DNA of 59,007 nt from an uncultured Rhodospirillales bacterium (GTDB lineage: Bacteria > Pseudomonadota > Alphaproteobacteria > CAAGCB01 > CAG-977). This document shows positions 240-26,701 of the stretch, piece by piece. The stretch lies in NCBI GenBank assembly GCA_902777205.1, contig CACYSU010000013.1:31952-90958 (forward strand), in the 5' to 3' direction. Under the pieces are notes generated by a model. The model ran no database searches. It was not told the origin of the DNA and saw only the letters and a list, made by a program, of their open reading frames with translations. Both the position numbers and the translations under genes were made by a program. The stretch's first letter is position 1. Each line of letters begins with the position of its first letter.

Positions 240-1148
240 ATGAGCACTCAAATCACAACGTCTTTTGTCAGCCAGTACAGTTCCAACATTCAGGCTTTGG
301 TGCAGCAGAAAGGGTCGAAGCTGCGCGATTTGGTCGGATACGAAAGTGTGCGCGGCAAAAATATGTTCATCGACCAGATCGGTCAGGTCGCTGCCGTCAA
401 AAAAACGACGCGCCACGCCGACACGCCGCAGTCCGACACGCCCCACAAACGCCGCCAGCTGTCGCTGGAAACATACCATTGGGCGGATCTGATCGACAAT
501 GACGACAAGGTCAGAATGTTGATCGACCCGACCAGCGATTACGCCAACGCGGCCGCTTGGGCGATGGGGCGCGCGATCGACGAGGCGATCGTCACCGCCG
601 CGCTGGGAACGGCGCACACTGGTGAAACCGGCGCGACGGAGGTCGCTTTGCCGGCGACGCAGGTCGTTGACGCGAACTGCGCGTCGAAATTTACTTTCGA
701 CAAGCTGCGCGAAGTCAAAAGAATGTTCGACAAATGCGACGCTCCCAGCGAAGGCCGCTATATCGTCCTGTCCGCCCAGCAGCTGGACGATTTGCTGAGC
801 GAAACAAAAGTCACGTCCGCCGATTACGCGTCCGCCAAAGCTTTGGTGCGCGGCGAACTGGACACGTTCATGGGATTCCGGTTCGTTCAGCTGAACGCCA
901 AAAACAGTGCCGGAAAGCTGATTTTGCCGGATGTCGTTTCCGGTTCGGGCGAATCCGCGTCCGTCGTCGGCCGTTCGTGTCTGGCTTTTCAGTCCGGCGG
1001 CATCAAGCTGGGCATCGGGCAGGACATTGTCGGAAAAATCACGGAACGCGACGACAAATGTTTCGCGACGCAGGTTTATTACGAAATGTCGATCGGCGCG
1101 GTGCGTATGCAGGAAGAGCTGGTCGTCAAGATCAACTGCAAGGAATGA
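240..1148 (+). CDS. Phage major capsid protein (podovirus type)
   Basis: 302 residues. The protein forms the icosahedral head. It begins MSTQITTSFVSQYSSNIQAL, continues with a stretch on the pattern 'LxQQKGSxLR', and has DTPHKRRQLSLETYHWADLI and 'DKVRMLIDPTS.YA.AAAWAMGRA', all familiar from capsid proteins of T7-like and related prophages. Length and gene order (scaffold, capsid, tail tubular A, tail tubular B) fit. The start has a good Shine-Dalgarno sequence (AAAAGGAGAAAAC). Terminator-like hairpins lie on both sides, as expected for a strongly and separately expressed structural gene. No frame damage is seen. Identification as capsid is firm; the exact phage genus is unknown. Confidence 0.9.
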   Translation: MSTQITTSFVSQYSSNIQALVQQKGSKLRDLVGYESVRGKNMFIDQIGQVAAVKKTTRHADTPQSDTPHKRRQLSLETYHWADLIDNDDKVRMLIDPTSDYANAAAWAMGRAIDEAIVTAALGTAHTGETGATEVALPATQVVDANCASKFTFDKLREVKRMFDKCDAPSEGRYIVLSAQQLDDLLSETKVTSADYASAKALVRGELDTFMGFRFVQLNAKNSAGKLILPDVVSGSGESASVVGRSCLAFQSGGIKLGIGQDIVGKITERDDKCFATQVYYEMSIGAVRMQEELVVKINCKE

Positions 1149-1152
1149 TGAA

Positions 1153-1188
1153 ACGGCGGCGGGGACGCGTGTTCCCGCCGTCTTTGAT
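1153..1188 (+). terminator. Terminator-like hairpin after the capsid gene
   Basis: A GC-rich imperfect stem (CGGCGG... with ...CCCGCCG) is followed by TCTTTGATTTTGATTT. Its place just after the capsid gene matches the T-phi terminator of T7, which follows gene 10. Confidence 0.5.
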
Positions 1189-1210
1189 TTTGATTTGAAA
1201 GGAGGAAAAA

Positions 1211-1768
1211 ATGACTTCCGTTGCCGCCGTGTGCAACCGCGCGCTGTCCAAAATCGGGGACGAGGCCGTTGTTTTGTCGCTGGACGATGAAACGAAGGCC
1301 GCCCGTTACTGCAAAGCTTTGTACGCCGACACGCGCGATTTCGTGCTGCGATCCTATCCGTGGCGTTTCGCGTTGAAACGCTATGTTCTGGCGCCGTTGA
1401 AAGACAGGCCGCCGTTTGGTTACAGCCGCCAATTCGCTTTGCCGTCCGATTGTTTGCGCGTGTGGAAAGTCGCCGGATGCGACCGTTATCAGGTCGAGGG
1501 GCGCCGCGTTTTGGCCGACGGCGACGTGTTCAGCTTTACCGGCATTTCCAGAATCGAGGACGCGACGCAGTTCGATCCGATGTTCGTCGAGGCGCTGGCG
1601 CTGCGTTTGGCGGCGGAATTGGCGGTGCCTTTGGCCGCGTCGGTCGCGTTGAAAGAAAATCTGGTCAAAGAGTACCAGCAGTTCGTTCAGCAGGCGAAAA
1701 CCGCGTCCGCCATGGAGGGCGCGCAGGACGTTTGTTCGCCGCTGGGGTGGTTGGAGGCCAGAAACTGA
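1211..1768 (+). CDS. Tail tubular protein A-like (T7 gp11 adaptor)
   Basis: 185 residues. In T7-like phages this protein forms the ring joining the portal to the tail nozzle. The sequence is typical: an N-terminal 'VCNRALSKIGDE' helix, then 'DTRDFVLRSYPWRFALKRY', then the central 'PSDCLRVWKV' segment and a C-terminal helical part ending GWLEARN. Length fits the family. The Shine-Dalgarno AAAGGAGG is 5 nt from the ATG. The stop overlaps the ATG of the next gene by one base (TGATG), so translation of the two is probably coupled. It lies in the expected order between the capsid gene and the tail nozzle gene. Confidence 0.85.
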   Translation: MTSVAAVCNRALSKIGDEAVVLSLDDETKAARYCKALYADTRDFVLRSYPWRFALKRYVLAPLKDRPPFGYSRQFALPSDCLRVWKVAGCDRYQVEGRRVLADGDVFSFTGISRIEDATQFDPMFVEALALRLAAELAVPLAASVALKENLVKEYQQFVQQAKTASAMEGAQDVCSPLGWLEARN

Positions 1769-3771
1769 TGTCATACACTACTGCTTTGGTTAGGTTTAAT
1801 TCCGGCGAAATATCCGGATTGATGGGCGGCCGCATCGACACCGAGGAATACAAGGCCGCCTGCAGCGTTTTGAAAAACTTCATTCCGTCCGTTCAGGGCC
1901 CCGTGTCCCGCCGCGGCGGCACGCGTTTTGTGGCGGCGGTCAAGCATTGCGACAAAAAAACGCGCCTGTTCGCTTTTCAATTTTCGGCGACCCAATCCTA
2001 TCTGCTGGAATTCGGGGACAAGTACGTCCGCGTTTTTCATCACCGTCAGCCGGTCGTTGACGCCGACGGGAATCCGGTCGAAATTCAGGTTCCCTATGCC
2101 GCCGAAGATTTGGACGATCTGTATTTTTCGCAATCCGGCGATGTCGTTTACATCGCGCATCCGTCTTTTCCGCTGCGGACGTTGACGCGTTTGTCGCAAA
2201 CGGATTGGGTGTCGGCGGAAGTCGCGCTGACCGACGGGCCGTATCTGCCCGTGCACACGGGGGATGTGACGCTGCAGCCGTCGGGGACGACGGGGAACGT
2301 GACGATATCGGCGTCCGCGGACGTTTTCGCGGCGACGGACGTGGGGCGTCATGTGCGCATCATGCATCCGAACAATCCGAACGTGCAGTGGGGCGCGGCC
2401 GAAATTACGGCGTTTTCAAGCGCGCGCAAGGTTTCCGCGAAAGTGTTCGCCGACTTGCCGTTTTTAAACACGGCGGCGTCGAAATCGTGGCGGCTGGGCG
2501 TGTTCGGCGGCGCGGTCGGCTATCCGTCCGTCGTAACGTTTTTTGAACAGCGGCTGGTTTTGGGCAAGGGCAACGGCATTTACGGGTCGAAAACGGGACA
2601 GTACGACCAGTTTTCGCCGACCGCGCCGGACGGATCGGTCACGGCGCAATACGGATACGGTTACGAACTGTCGTCGGATCAGATCAACGACGTGTGCTGG
2701 CTGTCGTCCGGCCGCGTGCTGGGCGTCGGGACTTTGGGCGCGGATTTCACGTTGGAAACGACGGGCGGCGAAGGGACGATTCCGATGACCGTCAAGGCGC
2801 AGCGTCATTCGACGTACGGCAGCGAACGCGTCGCGCCGGTCAAAGCGGGCGGAACGACCCTGTTCGTCCAGCGGTACGGGCGAAAGCTGCGCGCCTTTAT
2901 TTACGACAGCGCGACGGACGGGTACGTCGCCCGCGACCTGACGACTTTGGCGCCGCACATGACGTTCGGCGGCATCAAGGAAATGGCGCTGCAGCAGGAA
3001 CCCGTCCCCGTCGTTTGGTGCGTTTTGAAAAACGGTTCGCTGGCGGGATTGACCTATGAAGCCGCCGAATCCGTCAAAGCGTGGCATTCCCACGATCTGG
3101 CGGGCGGATCTGTCGAAAGCGCGGCGACTTTGCCCGCGCAAAACGGCGGATATGACGAGCTGTACCTGTTGGTGCGCCGCGAAATCAACGGGGAGACAAA
3201 GCGTTACATCGAGGTTATGGAAAGCGGCATTGACGAGGACGCCGCCGATACGACGGAATGTTTTTACGTCGATTGCGGGTTGTCCTATCACGGTGAAAAG
3301 GTCGCGCAGGTCGGCGGGCTGGATCATTTGGAGGGGCAAACCGTCGCCGTTTTGGCCGACGGCGCGGTGCAAACGGAAAAAGTGGTCGAAAACGGCAAAA
3401 TATCGCTGGACGCGCCGGCTTCGGTCGTTCACGCGGGGTTGCCGTTCACGTCCGTTTTGCAAACGATGCCTTTGGCCGGCGTCGGCGGCGGCGACATTTC
3501 CGAAGGGGCGACGAAACGCGTTTCGGGCGTGCTGCTGCGGCTGTACAAAACGCTGGGATTTTCGATCGGAACGGCGGACGGCGTCGAACGGCAGGGATTC
3601 CGCCGGCTGAACACGCCGACGGATGTGCCGCCGGCTTTGTTTTCGGGCGACCGGAAAGTGTTGTTCAGCGCGAGCTGGGGGCGGTCGTCGTCGGTGCGCA
3701 TCGAACAGGATCAGCCTTTGCCGCTGACCGTGTCGGGGATTTTCCCCGTCGTTTCCACAAACAGAATTTAA
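1768..3771 (+). CDS. Tail tubular protein B-like (T7 gp12 nozzle)
   Basis: 667 residues. Predicted to form the tail nozzle of a short-tailed phage. I place the start at the ATG overlapping the previous stop, giving MSYTTALVRFNSGEISGLMG. The opening 'FNSGEISGLMGGRID', 'YKAACSVLKNFIPSVQGPVS' and 'RRGGTRF' is the hallmark of tail tubular B proteins (F..GE.S..l..R.D...Y..g...l.N......G....R.GT.f). The rest is beta-rich, as expected for a propeller-like nozzle protein. The frame stays open further upstream, but that part overlaps the tail tubular A gene in another frame and is not coding. Confidence 0.85.
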   Translation: MSYTTALVRFNSGEISGLMGGRIDTEEYKAACSVLKNFIPSVQGPVSRRGGTRFVAAVKHCDKKTRLFAFQFSATQSYLLEFGDKYVRVFHHRQPVVDADGNPVEIQVPYAAEDLDDLYFSQSGDVVYIAHPSFPLRTLTRLSQTDWVSAEVALTDGPYLPVHTGDVTLQPSGTTGNVTISASADVFAATDVGRHVRIMHPNNPNVQWGAAEITAFSSARKVSAKVFADLPFLNTAASKSWRLGVFGGAVGYPSVVTFFEQRLVLGKGNGIYGSKTGQYDQFSPTAPDGSVTAQYGYGYELSSDQINDVCWLSSGRVLGVGTLGADFTLETTGGEGTIPMTVKAQRHSTYGSERVAPVKAGGTTLFVQRYGRKLRAFIYDSATDGYVARDLTTLAPHMTFGGIKEMALQQEPVPVVWCVLKNGSLAGLTYEAAESVKAWHSHDLAGGSVESAATLPAQNGGYDELYLLVRREINGETKRYIEVMESGIDEDAADTTECFYVDCGLSYHGEKVAQVGGLDHLEGQTVAVLADGAVQTEKVVENGKISLDAPASVVHAGLPFTSVLQTMPLAGVGGGDISEGATKRVSGVLLRLYKTLGFSIGTADGVERQGFRRLNTPTDVPPALFSGDRKVLFSASWGRSSSVRIEQDQPLPLTVSGIFPVVSTNRI

Positions 3772-3783
3772 GGAGGGATTACC

Positions 3784-4182
3784 ATGACGACAAAAACGGT
3801 TTTGGCCGACAGTGCCAAAAACACATTCAACTTATTGAAAGAATGGCGGAATTCAAAATCGGACGAGGATGAATACCGCCGCCAGGCCAAAGAGGTTTTG
3901 CGCCAAACGGCGGACGAAACCCGCCGGATGCGAAACGAAAAATCGGCGGAGATCGGCAAGGCCGTCGCCAAAGCGGGCGCGTCGGGCGTCAGGGTTTCAT
4001 CGTTTGACGACGCTTTTCTGTCCGCCGATTTGGAAACGGCGAAAAAAGCCTATGACAAAGAGGACGAGGCGCGTTCCGAGGCCTACGAGCTGCGGCGCAA
4101 GGCGGAAAAGGAACGGCGGGGCAGGCGGGACAAGGCTTTTTCCTATTCCGTCGGTCTGATCACAAATTTGGGAGGGTTCTGA
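3784..4182 (+). CDS. Small phage virion protein, helical, possibly internal/core
   Basis: 132 residues and almost entirely alpha-helical, with many Lys, Glu, Arg and Ala. A pattern of alternating charges (residues 20-60) is followed by 'KAGASGVRVSSFDDAFLSAD', then another charged coiled-coil-like stretch. A central 'A.GASGV..SSFDD.L' motif flanked by coiled coils is seen in small proteins that follow the nozzle gene in podovirus prophages and are often annotated as internal virion or gp14-like proteins. No enzyme motif is present. It is much smaller than T7 gp15 or gp16, and no homologue of those large ejection proteins follows. Confidence 0.55.
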   Translation: MTTKTVLADSAKNTFNLLKEWRNSKSDEDEYRRQAKEVLRQTADETRRMRNEKSAEIGKAVAKAGASGVRVSSFDDAFLSADLETAKKAYDKEDEARSEAYELRRKAEKERRGRRDKAFSYSVGLITNLGGF

Positions 4183-4193
4183 AGGGGGATAAA

Positions 4194-4358
4194 ATGGATA
4201 ACGTCAAAGAGGGCGTCGTCCTGTCGGCCGGATTGACCGCGCCGGCGTGGATGCCGATTTTAAACGAATGGGTCGGGTGTCTGGTCGGCATCGCGACCCT
4301 TTTGTATATCTGCGCGAAAATATATGTGCTGCTGTGCCGGTCGGGGGAAGTTGAATGA
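4194..4358 (+). CDS. Small holin-like membrane protein
   Basis: 54 residues, too short for routine gene calling. The ATG follows GAAGGGGGATAAA. The protein has a polar N-terminus (MDNVKEGVVLSAGL), one transmembrane helix around residues 27-48 (WVGCLVGIATLLYICAKIYV) and a short charged tail. Its stop codon overlaps the start of the endolysin gene in the sequence ATGA. Phage holins are commonly placed just ahead of the endolysin and make the inner-membrane lesion that releases it. One predicted helix and the position support a small class II or III-like holin; pore-forming activity is inferred. Confidence 0.6.
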   Translation: MDNVKEGVVLSAGLTAPAWMPILNEWVGCLVGIATLLYICAKIYVLLCRSGEVE

Positions 4359-4840
4359 TTTCAAAAAACGGAATCGAGATGGTCAAAAGGCTGGAAGGCT
4401 TTTCCCCGCTGGAATACACGTGCGTCGCGGGATGCCGGACGATCGGGTACGGCCATGTTTTAAAACCCGACGAGGAATACGTCGGCGGCGTCGGTGAAAA
4501 CGAGGCGGAAAAAATGCTTCTGCGCGATTTGCAGACGGCGGAAAACGCCGTTGACGCGCTGGTCGCCGTGCCGCTGACGCCCTGTCAGAAAGACGCTCTG
4601 GTCAGTTTCGTTTTCAACATCGGGGTCAGGGCTTTTTCAAAATCGACATTGCTGCGGCTGCTGAACGAAGGCGAATACGCGCGCGTGCCGGAACAGATGA
4701 ACCGTTGGGTGTTCGTCAACGGCCGGCCGTGTTTCGGTTTGGCGCGCCGCAGAAAAACAGAGGCGGCCATGTTCGTCAAACGTAAAAACGGGCGGGCGGC
4801 CGGTTCATCAGGAAAGGAGAAAACACATGAACAGTATTGA
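4355..4840 (+). CDS. Phage endolysin, GH24 lysozyme (muramidase)
   Basis: 161 residues. Cleaves the MurNAc-GlcNAc bond of peptidoglycan at the end of infection. The GH24 catalytic signature E-x8-(D/C)-x5-T is present as E14, C23 and T29 within 'RLEGF...CRTIGYGH'. Later, 'LTPCQKDALVSFVFNIGVRA' and 'FGLARRRKTEAAMF' match the C-terminal lobe. Cys in the second catalytic position is a known variant of the family. No signal peptide or signal-anchor is visible, so export must depend on a holin, and a candidate overlaps its start. The last 20 residues are basic and overlap the next gene. Confidence 0.9.
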   Translation: MISKNGIEMVKRLEGFSPLEYTCVAGCRTIGYGHVLKPDEEYVGGVGENEAEKMLLRDLQTAENAVDALVAVPLTPCQKDALVSFVFNIGVRAFSKSTLLRLLNEGEYARVPEQMNRWVFVNGRPCFGLARRRKTEAAMFVKRKNGRAAGSSGKEKTHEQY

Positions 4841-5021
4841 TTTCGCGGCTTTGCTGGAGCAGGCCGTTTTTTGGTTCGGAACGGTTGTCGCGGCCGCTTC
4901 GGTCATTGTCAAGGCGACGCCGACGCAGCGCGACGACGCCGTGCTGGCCAAAGTCGTCAAGGTTTTGGATCTGGTGTCCATTGTGAACGCCAATATTCGC
5001 AAAAGCGGCGATGAGTCTTGA
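4827..5021 (+). CDS. Small phage membrane protein in lysis cassette
   Basis: 64 residues. A good Shine-Dalgarno (AAAGGAG, 7 nt from ATG) lies inside the endolysin gene. The protein has a short N-terminal helix with hydrophobic residues 10-29 (LEQAVFWFGTVVAAASVIVK) and then an amphipathic helix (residues 39-58). It could be a second holin, an antiholin or a pinholin-like protein; position between endolysin and spanin-like genes supports a lysis role, but no family is recognised. Its last codons overlap the next start by 11 nt. Confidence 0.5.
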   Translation: MNSIDFAALLEQAVFWFGTVVAAASVIVKATPTQRDDAVLAKVVKVLDLVSIVNANIRKSGDES

Positions 5022-5214
5022 AAAAGCAATCGCCGTCGTCGCGGCCGCGGTTGTCGGCGTTCTGGTCGCTCTGGCCGTTGCGTTGGGGCGCGCGAACGAA
5101 AAAAACGCACGCGGTCGGGAACGGGAAAAGGCCGCCGCGTATGTGCGCAAAGTGCGCCGTTCTTTGCGCGACGGTTCTGTCGTCCGGCGGCTGCACGACG
5201 CGTTTAAGCGGTGA
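5011..5214 (+). CDS. Inner-membrane spanin-like protein (Rz-like)
   Basis: 67 residues: one N-terminal transmembrane helix (residues 5-26, 'AIAVVAAAVVGVLVALAVAL') followed by a strongly charged segment rich in Arg, Lys and Glu. That is the i-spanin layout, though shorter than a lambda Rz (about 150 residues). A second reading frame begins inside it and encodes an o-spanin-like product, which is the characteristic nested Rz/Rz1 arrangement. Spanins fuse inner and outer membranes in the last step of lysis of Gram-negative hosts. The assignment depends on this pairing and on the lysis cassette. Confidence 0.5.
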   Translation: MSLEKAIAVVAAAVVGVLVALAVALGRANEKNARGREREKAAAYVRKVRRSLRDGSVVRRLHDAFKR

Positions 5215-25670: not shown

Positions 25671-25746
<76 letters not shown>

Positions 25747-25749
25747 TTA

Positions 25750-25780
25750 AAAAAACCGTCCGACAAGGGCGGTTTTTTTA
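25750..25780 (+). terminator. Terminator of tRNA-Lys
   Basis: AAAAAACCGTCCGACAAGGGCGGTTTTTTT: a 9-bp or longer stem (AAAAACCG / CGGTTTTT with CC/GG) and a T-run. It is the first of two near-copies (see the repeat at 25756-25792). Confidence 0.75.
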
Positions 25781-25792
25781 ATGGTATGTATG
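25756..25792 (+). repeat. 37-nt direct repeat, copy 1
   Basis: Begins CCGTCCGACAAGGGCGG, continues with a T-run and ends AATGGTATGTATG. Copy 2 is at 25939-25975, 183 nt away, nearly identical (one A-to-T-run shift). Confidence 0.85.
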
Positions 25793-25938
25793 GGCGCGGG
25801 AGAGAACCCGCGGGCGGGTTCGGTCGCCGCAGGCGACGACGCGCAGGCGCACCGGCGCCGAGCGGCCGGCTTGACCGGTGAGCGCAGCGAACAACCCCTC
25901 ATCACCTTCGATGCGCAAAACCGGCAGAGTTTTGCATT
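25793..25938. repeat. Hairpin-rich GC block with degenerate tRNA 3' end
   Basis: No gene is apparent. Successive perfect inverted repeats are present: GAACCCGC-GG-GCGGGTTC, GTCGCC-GCA-GGCGAC, GGCGC-ACC-GGCGCC-like, and CCGG-CTTGA-CCGG. Near the end, 'AACCCCTCATCACC' resembles the 3' part of the tRNA ('AATCCCTCATCACCC'). The structure looks like a palindromic repetitive element inserted in a duplication of the tRNA 3' end and terminator. Confidence 0.55.
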
Positions 25939-25975
25939 CCGTCCGACAGGGCGGTTTTTTTTAATGGTATGTATG
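25939..25975 (+). repeat. 37-nt direct repeat, copy 2 (terminator-like)
   Basis: CCGTCCGACAGGGCGG, T-run, AATGGTATGTATG. It keeps the ability to form the terminator hairpin of copy 1. Confidence 0.85.
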
Positions 25976-26000: not shown

Positions 26001-26030
26001 TTGAATTTTTCCGTAAGGTGTGCTTATAAT
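26001..26030 (+). promoter_or_regulatory. Strong promoter of candidate antitoxin small RNA
   Basis: -35 TTGAAT at 26001-26006 and a perfect -10 TATAAT at 26025-26030, 18 nt apart. Transcription should begin near 26037 and read right. No reading frame with a ribosome site follows on this strand, but a structured RNA and a terminator hairpin do. Confidence 0.7.
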
Positions 26031-26036
26031 CGTGTA

Positions 26037-26112
26037 TCGGAAGTTTGGTGCATTTAACCGATTTTCAAAGAATACCCCCGCAGAGTGGCAGCTCTTGCGG
26101 GGGTAAGTTTTA
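26037..26112 (+). ncRNA. Candidate antitoxin RNA of a par/Fst-like type I module
   Basis: Predicted RNA of about 75 nt. Its 5' part can fold ATCGG (26036-26040) with CCGAT (26058-26062), exposing a 17-nt loop. The loop and its 3' edge hold TGGTGCATTTAACC (26046-26059). The same 14 nt, with one change, occur at 26184-26197, where they are the antisense of the Shine-Dalgarno and start codon of the 25-residue peptide gene. The RNA should therefore pair with the peptide mRNA at its translation start. It ends in the hairpin that also ends the peptide mRNA from the other side. Existence of the RNA is inferred; the promoter, repeat and hairpin are seen. Confidence 0.6.
26073..26112. terminator. Shared bidirectional terminator between small RNA and peptide mRNA
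   Basis: Stem TACCCCCGCA / TTGCGGGGGTA with an inner GAG/CTC stem (26073-26105), a 6-nt loop and T-rich flanks in both directions (AAGTTTTATTT on plus, TTCTTTGAAAAT on minus). It lies 9 nt past the stop codon of the minus-strand peptide gene. Confidence 0.65.
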
Positions 26113-26113
26113 T

Positions 26114-26191
26114 TTACTTGCCGTGGGCTTTTAATAAAACTGCGATCGCCAGCAAAATGTAAGCAATCGCTTCTATGAAAGAATGGTGCAT
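26114..26191 (-). CDS. 25-residue hydrophobic peptide, candidate type I toxin
   Basis: MHHSFIEAIAYILLAIAVLL then KAHGK. Residues 5-20 form one membrane helix, and the end is basic. The Shine-Dalgarno is near-perfect (GAAAGGAGG, 4-5 nt from ATG). A promoter on the minus strand (26230-26258) would give a 5' leader of about 32 nt with a small hairpin, and a terminator follows. A small RNA from the opposite side carries a sequence complementary to this ribosome site. Layout and peptide type match Fst/par-like type I toxins, which depolarise or damage the membrane. There is no sequence identity to Fst that I can claim, and toxicity is inferred. Confidence 0.65.
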   Translation of the reverse strand: MHHSFIEAIAYILLAIAVLLKAHGK

Positions 26192-26197
26192 TTTACC
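26184..26197. repeat. 14-nt direct repeat overlapping peptide start and RBS
   Basis: TGGTGCATTTTACC, 13 of 14 identical to TGGTGCATTTAACC at 26046-26059. Because the two transcripts run in opposite directions, a direct repeat in DNA gives complementarity in RNA, as with DRa/DRb of plasmid pAD1 par. Confidence 0.85.
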
Positions 26198-26229
26198 TCC
26201 TTTCAATCCGCTGTAAGGCGGACGGGCGC

Positions 26230-26258
26230 ATATTACCGACATATCCGTTGTTTTACAA
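26230..26258 (-). promoter_or_regulatory. Promoter of the 25-residue peptide gene
   Basis: Read on the minus strand: TTGTAA (-35), 17 nt, TAATAT (-10). Start expected near 26223. The leader then folds TCCGC-CTTACA-GCGGA at its 5' end just before the Shine-Dalgarno. Confidence 0.65.
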
Positions 26259-26298
26259 CTTCAAAGGAAGAAGAGGCTTTCTTAACAATCTCGGTGAA

Positions 26299-26328
26299 AA
26301 AGAGGGCGCCGCGAACGACGCCCCCGAA
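26299..26328 (-). terminator. Terminator after the 20-residue peptide gene
   Basis: On the minus strand GGGCGTCG-TTCG-CGGCGCCC (one or two imperfect pairs) followed by TCTTTTTC. It starts right after the stop codon of the small peptide gene. Confidence 0.6.
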
Positions 26329-26331
26329 AAA

Positions 26332-26394
26332 TCAACTGTAAAACAGCGTGATTATTTCAATTAAAATTTTCAGCAACGCTAAAAATTTCAACAT
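26332..26394 (-). CDS. 20-residue hydrophobic peptide (Ibs-like size and composition)
   Basis: MLKFLALLKILIEIITLFYS, TGA stop. A strong Shine-Dalgarno GGAGGGG lies 5 nt before the ATG and can be held in the loop of a small hairpin (GCAC-GGAGGG-GTGC), which could restrain translation. A terminator follows the stop. Composition and length recall Ibs toxins (18-19 residues), but it may equally be a free-standing small membrane protein. I found no antisense RNA promoter facing it comparable to that of the neighbouring 25-residue peptide. Confidence 0.5.
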   Translation of the reverse strand: MLKFLALLKILIEIITLFYS

Positions 26395-26450
26395 GGCACC
26401 CCTCCGTGCGGAAACATGACCGCGTTGAGAAAAGAGCCGCCGGAAACCCA

Positions 26451-26479
26451 TTGACAAACGTCCGCGGATTTCCTATCCT
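26451..26479 (+). promoter_or_regulatory. Strong promoter of small RNA or deaminase leader
   Basis: Perfect -35 TTGACA (26451-26456), 17-nt spacer, -10 TATCCT (26474-26479). Start expected near 26486. Confidence 0.7.
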
Positions 26480-26485
26480 ATAGCC

Positions 26486-26562
26486 ATGAGATGGAGTTAT
26501 AGCGCAACTCCTTTCCATGTTAAGGAAAATGTCCGGTGCTGCAAACGCCGGACTTTTCTTTT
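26486..26562 (+). ncRNA. Candidate structured small RNA or leader with three hairpins
   Basis: After the strong promoter come three hairpins in a row: GGAGTT-ATAGCGC-AACTCC, TTTCC-ATGTTAA-GGAAA, and a terminator-like GTCCGG-TGCTGCAAACG-CCGGAC followed by TTTTCTTTT. Between the first two, CTCCTTTCC is complementary to a strong Shine-Dalgarno (GGAAAGGAG) and shares 8 nt of complementarity with the RBS of the 25-residue peptide mRNA. It could be a free small RNA of about 75 nt or the attenuating leader of the deaminase gene 140 nt downstream. Not one of the riboswitch classes I know. Confidence 0.55.
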
Positions 26563-26701
26563 ATATGTGCTTTCGCGCGGGCGGACAAGGAATAAAAAGA
26601 GGGCGCAGCTGATCGGGGGTGTCCGTTTCCACGCCCTTTGCTTCAAATCATTTGTCGCCGCGCGAAAAGGCTGGTATGATGCCGGAAAAAGGAGGTTTCG
26701 C

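Follow-up and report, generated by a model that had tools for sequence, protein, structure and literature searches.

Does an alphaproteobacterium carry a type I toxin-antitoxin system built like the par locus of plasmid pAD1? This question is raised by a locus of about 260 bases, here called module A, in a 59,007-nucleotide stretch of DNA from an uncultured Rhodospirillales bacterium (the window). The par locus of pAD1 combines convergent promoters, a bidirectional hairpin, direct repeats at the toxin start, a 5' stem-loop in which the Shine-Dalgarno sequence is sequestered and a short membrane peptide; Fst-type par loci have been placed in the Firmicutes, and the Ldr branch, which is differently regulated, in enterobacteria (PMC7472228). 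We found no type I systems described in Alphaproteobacteria in the open-access literature. An initial sequence-only reading had proposed a par-like module at this position, with the following anatomy as we now describe it.

26001-26030, plus strand: predicted promoter of the small antitoxin RNA, TTGAAT-18-TATAAT, by sequence match
26037-26115, plus strand: predicted small antitoxin RNA of about 75-80 nt, its ends inferred; fold z -5.0
26038-26069, plus strand: trans-pairing segment of the small RNA, containing the repeat copy TGGTGCATTTAACC at 26046-26059; duplex -32.0 kcal/mol
26074-26104, both strands: terminator-like hairpin common to both RNAs, a 9-bp GC stem plus GAG/CTC
26114-26191, minus strand: candidate toxin ORF MHHSFIEAIAYILLAIAVLLKAHGK, 25 aa, from ATG at 26191 to TAA at 26114
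26177-26206, minus strand: toxin start region, the predicted target of the small RNA, containing the repeat copy TGGTGCATTTTACC at 26184-26197
26200-26196, minus strand: toxin Shine-Dalgarno sequence AAAGGAGGT, 3-4 nt before the ATG
26176-26205 (borders approximate), minus strand: 5' stem-loop sequestering the Shine-Dalgarno sequence, with the start codon in the loop, from pairing probabilities
26206-26223, minus strand: leader hairpin of the toxin mRNA, with one compensatory pair change (C-G to U-A) in L040, L041 and L002
26230-26258, minus strand: predicted promoter of the toxin mRNA, TTGTAA-17-TAATAT

The two facing promoters lie exactly where they had been claimed, with 200 nt between their -10 boxes, and the ORF for a 25-residue hydrophobic peptide on the minus strand was confirmed together with its near-perfect Shine-Dalgarno sequence. 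The peptide has a maximum 15-residue hydropathy of 2.65, as expected of a small hydrophobic peptide, and a scan of the whole 59 kb for a Shine-Dalgarno sequence followed by an ATG and a hydrophobic ORF of 15-35 aa returned this ORF and a neighbour at 26394, and no others. Both RNAs had been proposed to end at one hairpin. This hairpin is strong and conserved, but its U tracts are imperfect on either strand, and for this reason the terminator scan did not list it.

The repeat had been described as a 14-nt match to the antisense of the ribosome-binding site and start codon of the peptide. Its two copies are indeed identical at 13 of the 14 positions, but the complementarity is longer than that: positions 26038-26069 of the small RNA form an imperfect duplex of about 30 nt with positions 26206-26177 of the toxin mRNA, spanning the Shine-Dalgarno sequence, the start codon and the first codons. 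Interaction prediction, which had been suggested as a check, gave -32.0 kcal/mol for this duplex, far beyond the values obtained for dinucleotide shuffles of the small RNA (-14.7, sd 3.0) or of the target (-14.9, sd 2.8), with 1 and 0 of 2000 shuffles, respectively, being equally good. When the small RNA's own antisense region is set aside, the toxin start is its best site among all 70-nt stretches on both strands of the window. Both RNAs are also predicted to be more stably folded than all of their 200 shuffles (the toxin mRNA with a z of -6.7). The Shine-Dalgarno sequence is paired with a probability of 0.98-1.0 in the window and 0.95-0.99 in the related phage contig L040, with the AUG placed in the loop of the stem-loop, and the predicted 5' hairpin loop of the small RNA, UGCAUUU, is complementary to the toxin start region. 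Given these two loops, pairing would naturally be expected to begin as a kissing contact.

Homologues of module A are present in G006, a sister species in the same genus as the window (82%), and in L040 and L041, two near-identical phage contigs from IMG/VR. The alignable block in the four sequences runs from the plus-strand promoter through the minus-strand promoter, and the flanks are unalignable. The promoter of the small RNA keeps its -10 box and position (TTGAAA-18-TATAAT in L040/L041, TTGAAT-18-TATAAT in L002), and the toxin promoter reads TTGTAA-17-TAATAT in L040/L041 and TTGTCA-17-TAATAT in L002. The ORF of the phage contigs, MHHSFIEATAYILLAIAVLLKAYGK, is intact and identical to the window peptide at 23 of 25 residues. 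Five of the seven nucleotide changes between the two ORFs are synonymous; so few residue changes have a P of about 0.06, which is a weak signal of peptide constraint, because the near-identity of L040 and L041 leaves just two independent intact sequences of module A. The phage contigs further retain the repeat pair, the Shine-Dalgarno stem, the leader hairpin with its compensatory pair and the stem of the shared hairpin, the loop of which has been replaced.

The copy in G006 has a different fate. A REP-like sequence, CCCCGCACGGGTAGTGCC, stands in place of the toxin start and Shine-Dalgarno sequence, and the small RNA, the hairpin and both promoters persist. Judged by its sequence, this copy is a toxin-dead relic that has lost the toxin and retained the antitoxin RNA, which is, in this one case, the order of decay predicted for toxin-antitoxin systems. 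Its small RNA pairs at -10.5 kcal/mol, compared with -13.8 for shuffles, and hence at shuffle level, and the loop no longer pairs; with the toxin start replaced, this indicates that the repeat decays after toxin loss. The persistence of the small RNA without a toxin start could also be taken to mean that the RNA itself is the functional product, acting as a regulator or as a terminator between endolysin and holin genes, and that the ORF is incidental. We consider this very improbable, since the ORF has a near-perfect Shine-Dalgarno sequence, hydrophobic ORFs with RNA-complementary start regions occur in three genera (see below), and it is precisely the copy without an ORF start that has lost the repeat.

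As a separate observation, the REP-like sequence CCCCGCACGGGTAGTGCC that in one copy displaces the toxin ORF start of G006 occurs elsewhere in these genomes, and REP-like sequences of the form CCCCGCACGGG(T/G)A(G/A)TGC(C) are dispersed (L037 at 6537; L103 at 1692, 2111 and 2439; L082 at 1352).

Module A itself has a narrow distribution in the collections searched. A covariance model of the small RNA (R1), run against 385 genomes of the class, gave strong matches in G000 and G006 only; a match at L071 was rejected as a chance terminator. When the peptide was searched against 12 genomes of the family, the window alone matched, and blastn and tblastn searches with module and peptide gave no match in the phage and plasmid collections. 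A toxin-start pattern hit 13 stretches of viral contigs, none of them real except L040/L041, and leader and hairpin patterns revealed no further copies of module A in these contigs. Four of five matches of a pattern search of genome contigs were due to chance and the fifth was the contig of G006; early weak DNA matches to the module were likewise discarded as shared ribosome sites or chance.

More divergent modules exist in two other genera of the family. When the 12 genomes of the order were searched permissively, a weak match (E 0.02) appeared in a genome of another genus, G007, which led to the first of the following loci.

G007:C15, L124 1510-1700: module with a 26-aa hydrophobic ORF, VILLKRSLQVLGLAFVFLLSFVSKAW, beginning GTGATCCTACTAAA
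G011:C45:24051-24131 plus flank (L161): module with a 24-aa peptide, VFITLLKVIIVIIEIIIIILEKSR, and a promoter TTGACA-17-TAAATT

The small RNA of L124 carries TTTAGTAGGATCA, and the loop of its GC-rich shared hairpin, AGAGTTGCCGCTC, is that of G006. Together with the ORF start, TTTAGTAGGATCA allows small RNA and toxin start to pair again, at -22.3 kcal/mol compared with -11.2 (sd 2.6) for shuffles; no good -35 box and no toxin promoter were recognised at this locus. A scan of about 500 kb for the layout alone returned the window module and L124 alone, and nothing in the reversed-sequence control. L161 came from a looser layout scan of 57 loci picked by a model that included L124. It has the linker CAAAGAA, a CCCCC..GGGGG hairpin and a repeat, TTAACAGTGTTATAAACAC / TTGACAGTGTTATTCACAA, across the toxin start, and its small RNA pairs with its own toxin start at -26.9 kcal/mol, compared with -14.4 (sd 3.0) for shuffles; its leader has a different predicted fold, and its contig is from a bin that has 4% contamination. 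Besides L161, the looser scan gave a 10-nt match at L201 that is likely due to chance and one match in the control, so that we accept L161 because of its complete anatomy, beyond its being a scan match. The model R3 gave many weak terminator-like matches in the class, of which the architecture scan kept only module A, L124 and L161, besides the L201 and control matches just named.

Thus, the three genera have three unrelated peptides and three unrelated repeats, and retain the layout and the complementarity at the start. Whether the repeat pair is conserved as the peptide diverges had been set beforehand as a refutation test, and L124 and L161 keep the start complementarity with both peptide and repeat changed. 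The suggested check for a conserved order of promoter, repeat, peptide and terminator gave the whole unit in L040/L041 and the layout in L124 and L161. Homology of module A with these two loci would be based on the layout and on short motifs (the CAAAGAA linker, the C-rich hairpin and, for L124, the loop AGAGTTGCCGCTC). The recurrence of the layout, with quite different sequences, in other genera and among phage lysis genes suggests a genuine system that evolves rapidly, as opposed to a coincidence. One might imagine that AT-rich promoter-like sequences and hairpins had come together beside a tRNA by chance, as promoter-like sites are common (1.1 expected per 1.2 kb of shuffled sequence). However, promoter-to-promoter conservation in other genomes, the duplex statistics and the absence of matches in the control of the strict scan make this extremely improbable, and the homologues already contradict it.

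What could such a module be for? In L040/L041 it lies between a GH24 endolysin gene and a holin-like gene; in L041, the lysozyme is assigned to GH24 by PF00959 (E 1e-31), and the other flank is a 107-aa holin-like ORF. In G006, the copy lies behind the 3' end of a lysozyme gene. The last genes of L041 resemble those of a prophage-like region of G001 (82% identity for an NrdD C-terminus-like protein, 71% for a spanin-like and 43% for a holin-like protein), and the phage therefore probably has its hosts in this bacterial group. At 984-4899, just before its lysis genes, L041 encodes a tail protein and then a reverse transcriptase, which we read as a diversity-generating retroelement arrangement.

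On the one hand, these positions could indicate a phage lysis-timing device instead of an addiction module, with a holin-like accessory peptide whose translation is held by the small RNA until late infection; for the prophage type I system hokW-sokW, a contribution to lysis and phage release has been reported (PMC8621323). On the other hand, the toxin gene is antisense to the late genes, so that late read-through would yield more antitoxin and not more toxin, and no lysis cassette is recognisable around the divergent copies L124 and L161. We regard a pure timing device as unlikely. Addiction fits this orientation better than help with lysis.

In the window, module A is flanked by tRNA-Lys (25671-25746) and a dCMP-deaminase-like gene and adjoins a second module described below, and phage genes are absent around it; this copy has probably outlived the loss of its prophage. 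An empty-site comparison at tRNA-Lys showed a common left flank and a different right flank. After the 3' end of the tRNA, CCCTCATCACC and the terminator CCGTCCGACA(A/G)GGCGG..AATGGTATGTATG recur about 190 bases on (25747-25790 and 25897-25975), which looks like an att-like sequence or a small duplication. Elsewhere in the window (2716-5211), the structural protein (33% identity), the lysozyme (43%) and the spanin-like gene (49%) of L041 have homologues; this lysis cassette is also present in relatives, and its lysozyme match (4352-4780) contains one in-frame TGA. In the lysozyme cassettes of relatives (L060-L068), the stretches read beyond the lysozyme showed holin- and spanin-like genes following it, and no module.

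Compared with known systems, module A resembles par of pAD1 (RNA I/Fst and RNA II) and its Firmicute homologues in layout, with predicted convergent promoters, a shared hairpin (its U tracts imperfect), repeats, a stem-loop and a short putative membrane peptide. Sequence match and conservation back the two facing promoters, one for the toxin mRNA and one for the antitoxin RNA, repeats complementary at the toxin ribosome site are found in the window, L040, L124 and L161, and the sequestering 5' stem-loop in the window and L040; a second long complementarity via the shared 3' hairpin region would also be common to both systems. Unlike par of pAD1, module A occurs in alphaproteobacterial hosts and phage, its peptides have 24-26 aa, it has no Rfam match, and repeat and peptide of the loci of this type change completely between genera. 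The Trp of the Fst/Ldr signature is missing from the peptide MHHSFIEAIAYILLAIAVLLKAHGK, whose tail is short and weakly charged, as it also is from the pAD1 prototype (PMC7472228). The P/D/S/T-XXX-G motif, present in the majority of Fst/Ldr members but not in all (PMC7472228), is absent from its helix, and neither a Pfam, an NCBIfam nor a significant PHROGs match was found for the peptide. Module A would be par-like in its working and, without Trp, PXXXG-type motif or family match, is by its sequence not a member of the Fst/Ldr family. Of the initial proposal of an Fst-like module with a new peptide family, the par layout is supported, no family in the databases searched matches the peptide, and the Fst/Ldr signature is missing. 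The hokW-sokW system of prophage Sp5 is likewise phage-borne, with a lysis-related role (PMC8621323), and differs in its peptide and in its hok/sok layout, in which the small RNA is antisense to a long leader.

The par-like reading is thus supported by the conservation in phage contigs, by the stem-loop in the window and L040, and by L124 and L161. With a probability of roughly 0.78, we take module A to be a type I toxin-antitoxin system of par type whose likely benefit, given its place among phage lysis genes, would be prophage addiction or an antisense-restrained aid to lysis. For its transcription, repression, toxicity and role we infer the following scheme. The minus-strand RNA would encode a single-pass membrane peptide of 25 aa, with the Shine-Dalgarno sequence locked in the 5' stem-loop and the start codon in the loop. 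The convergent plus-strand RNA of about 75 nt would stop at the same hairpin, making the two RNAs complementary along their 3' parts, and the loop of its 5' hairpin (UGCAUUU) would carry a further complementarity, to the toxin start region. Pairing would mask the ribosome site of the toxin and presumably feed RNase III. On loss of the module or of its transcription, the RNA antitoxin would decay first, the peptide would be made and the membrane would be damaged. The module would travel as mobile cargo, sited between endolysin and holin-like genes in related phages. A wider proposal remains tentative: that this is a par-architecture system, unrelated in sequence to Fst, of an alphaproteobacterial lineage and its phages, in which repeat pair and peptide are swapped or co-diverge within a fixed layout, and which serves the phage lysis programme as well as addiction.

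Immediately to the right of module A lies module B (26297-26588), a separate and independent candidate with the following features.

26297-26325, minus strand: terminator behind the peptide ORF
26332-26394, minus strand: peptide ORF MLKFLALLKILIEIITLFYS, 20 aa
26451-26479, plus strand: small-RNA promoter TTGACA-17-TATCCT, conserved in 10 aligned copies
26486-26564, plus strand: predicted small RNA, ending at GTCCGG(..)CCGGAC plus TTTTCTTTTAT
26560-26588, minus strand: peptide mRNA promoter TTGTCC-17-TATAAA, in that form at most other copies examined

The peptide promoter, of the general form TTGnnn-17-TATAAA, lies on the opposite strand just past the small-RNA terminator, so that the peptide mRNA would begin with a long leader to which the small RNA is antisense. 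At sequence level, this is the layout of hok/sok and ldr/rdl, in which the toxin leader is antisense to a divergently transcribed small RNA; module B shares with these systems the long structured leader, the opposite-strand small RNA within it and the occurrence in many copies or tandem arrays, and differs from them in its peptides of 20-21 aa, which form an unrelated family with no database match. RNAalifold predicts 28 pairs, 11 of them with changes on both sides. In the genome of the window, sampled as 20 stretches, there are at least five copies, a tandem array of three among them, with MIKILIYIIKFIIQVLITFIR and MMRVLIYIIKLIINVLMSVFR as other peptides and some copies without a recognisable peptide. 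Of 12 genomes of the order, 8 contain module B (one match being weak, E 0.003). On contig C16 of G000 the three tandem copies precede a gene resembling that of DNA polymerase I; in G001 module B lies in a region that looks like a lysis cassette, and a single copy with the same layout is present in another family of the class (G277, MRIKIILIIRKIRIFLSIKR). Its pattern gave no match in viral contigs. The loci with copies, besides the window, are L078, L099, L075, L082, L089, L015, L037, L110 and L122. Module B is a candidate multicopy type I module of the hok/sok or ldr/rdl kind and, if true, would be a second new family.

If our reading of module A is true, the occurrence of a par-type layout with unrelated peptides in Alphaproteobacteria would suggest that a regulatory design of this kind can emerge more than once or move without its toxin. 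Repeat pairs that diverge together would open to testing the old question of how paralogous antisense toxin-antitoxin pairs acquire their specificity, and a site among phage lysis genes offers a concrete hypothesis on what such modules may do.
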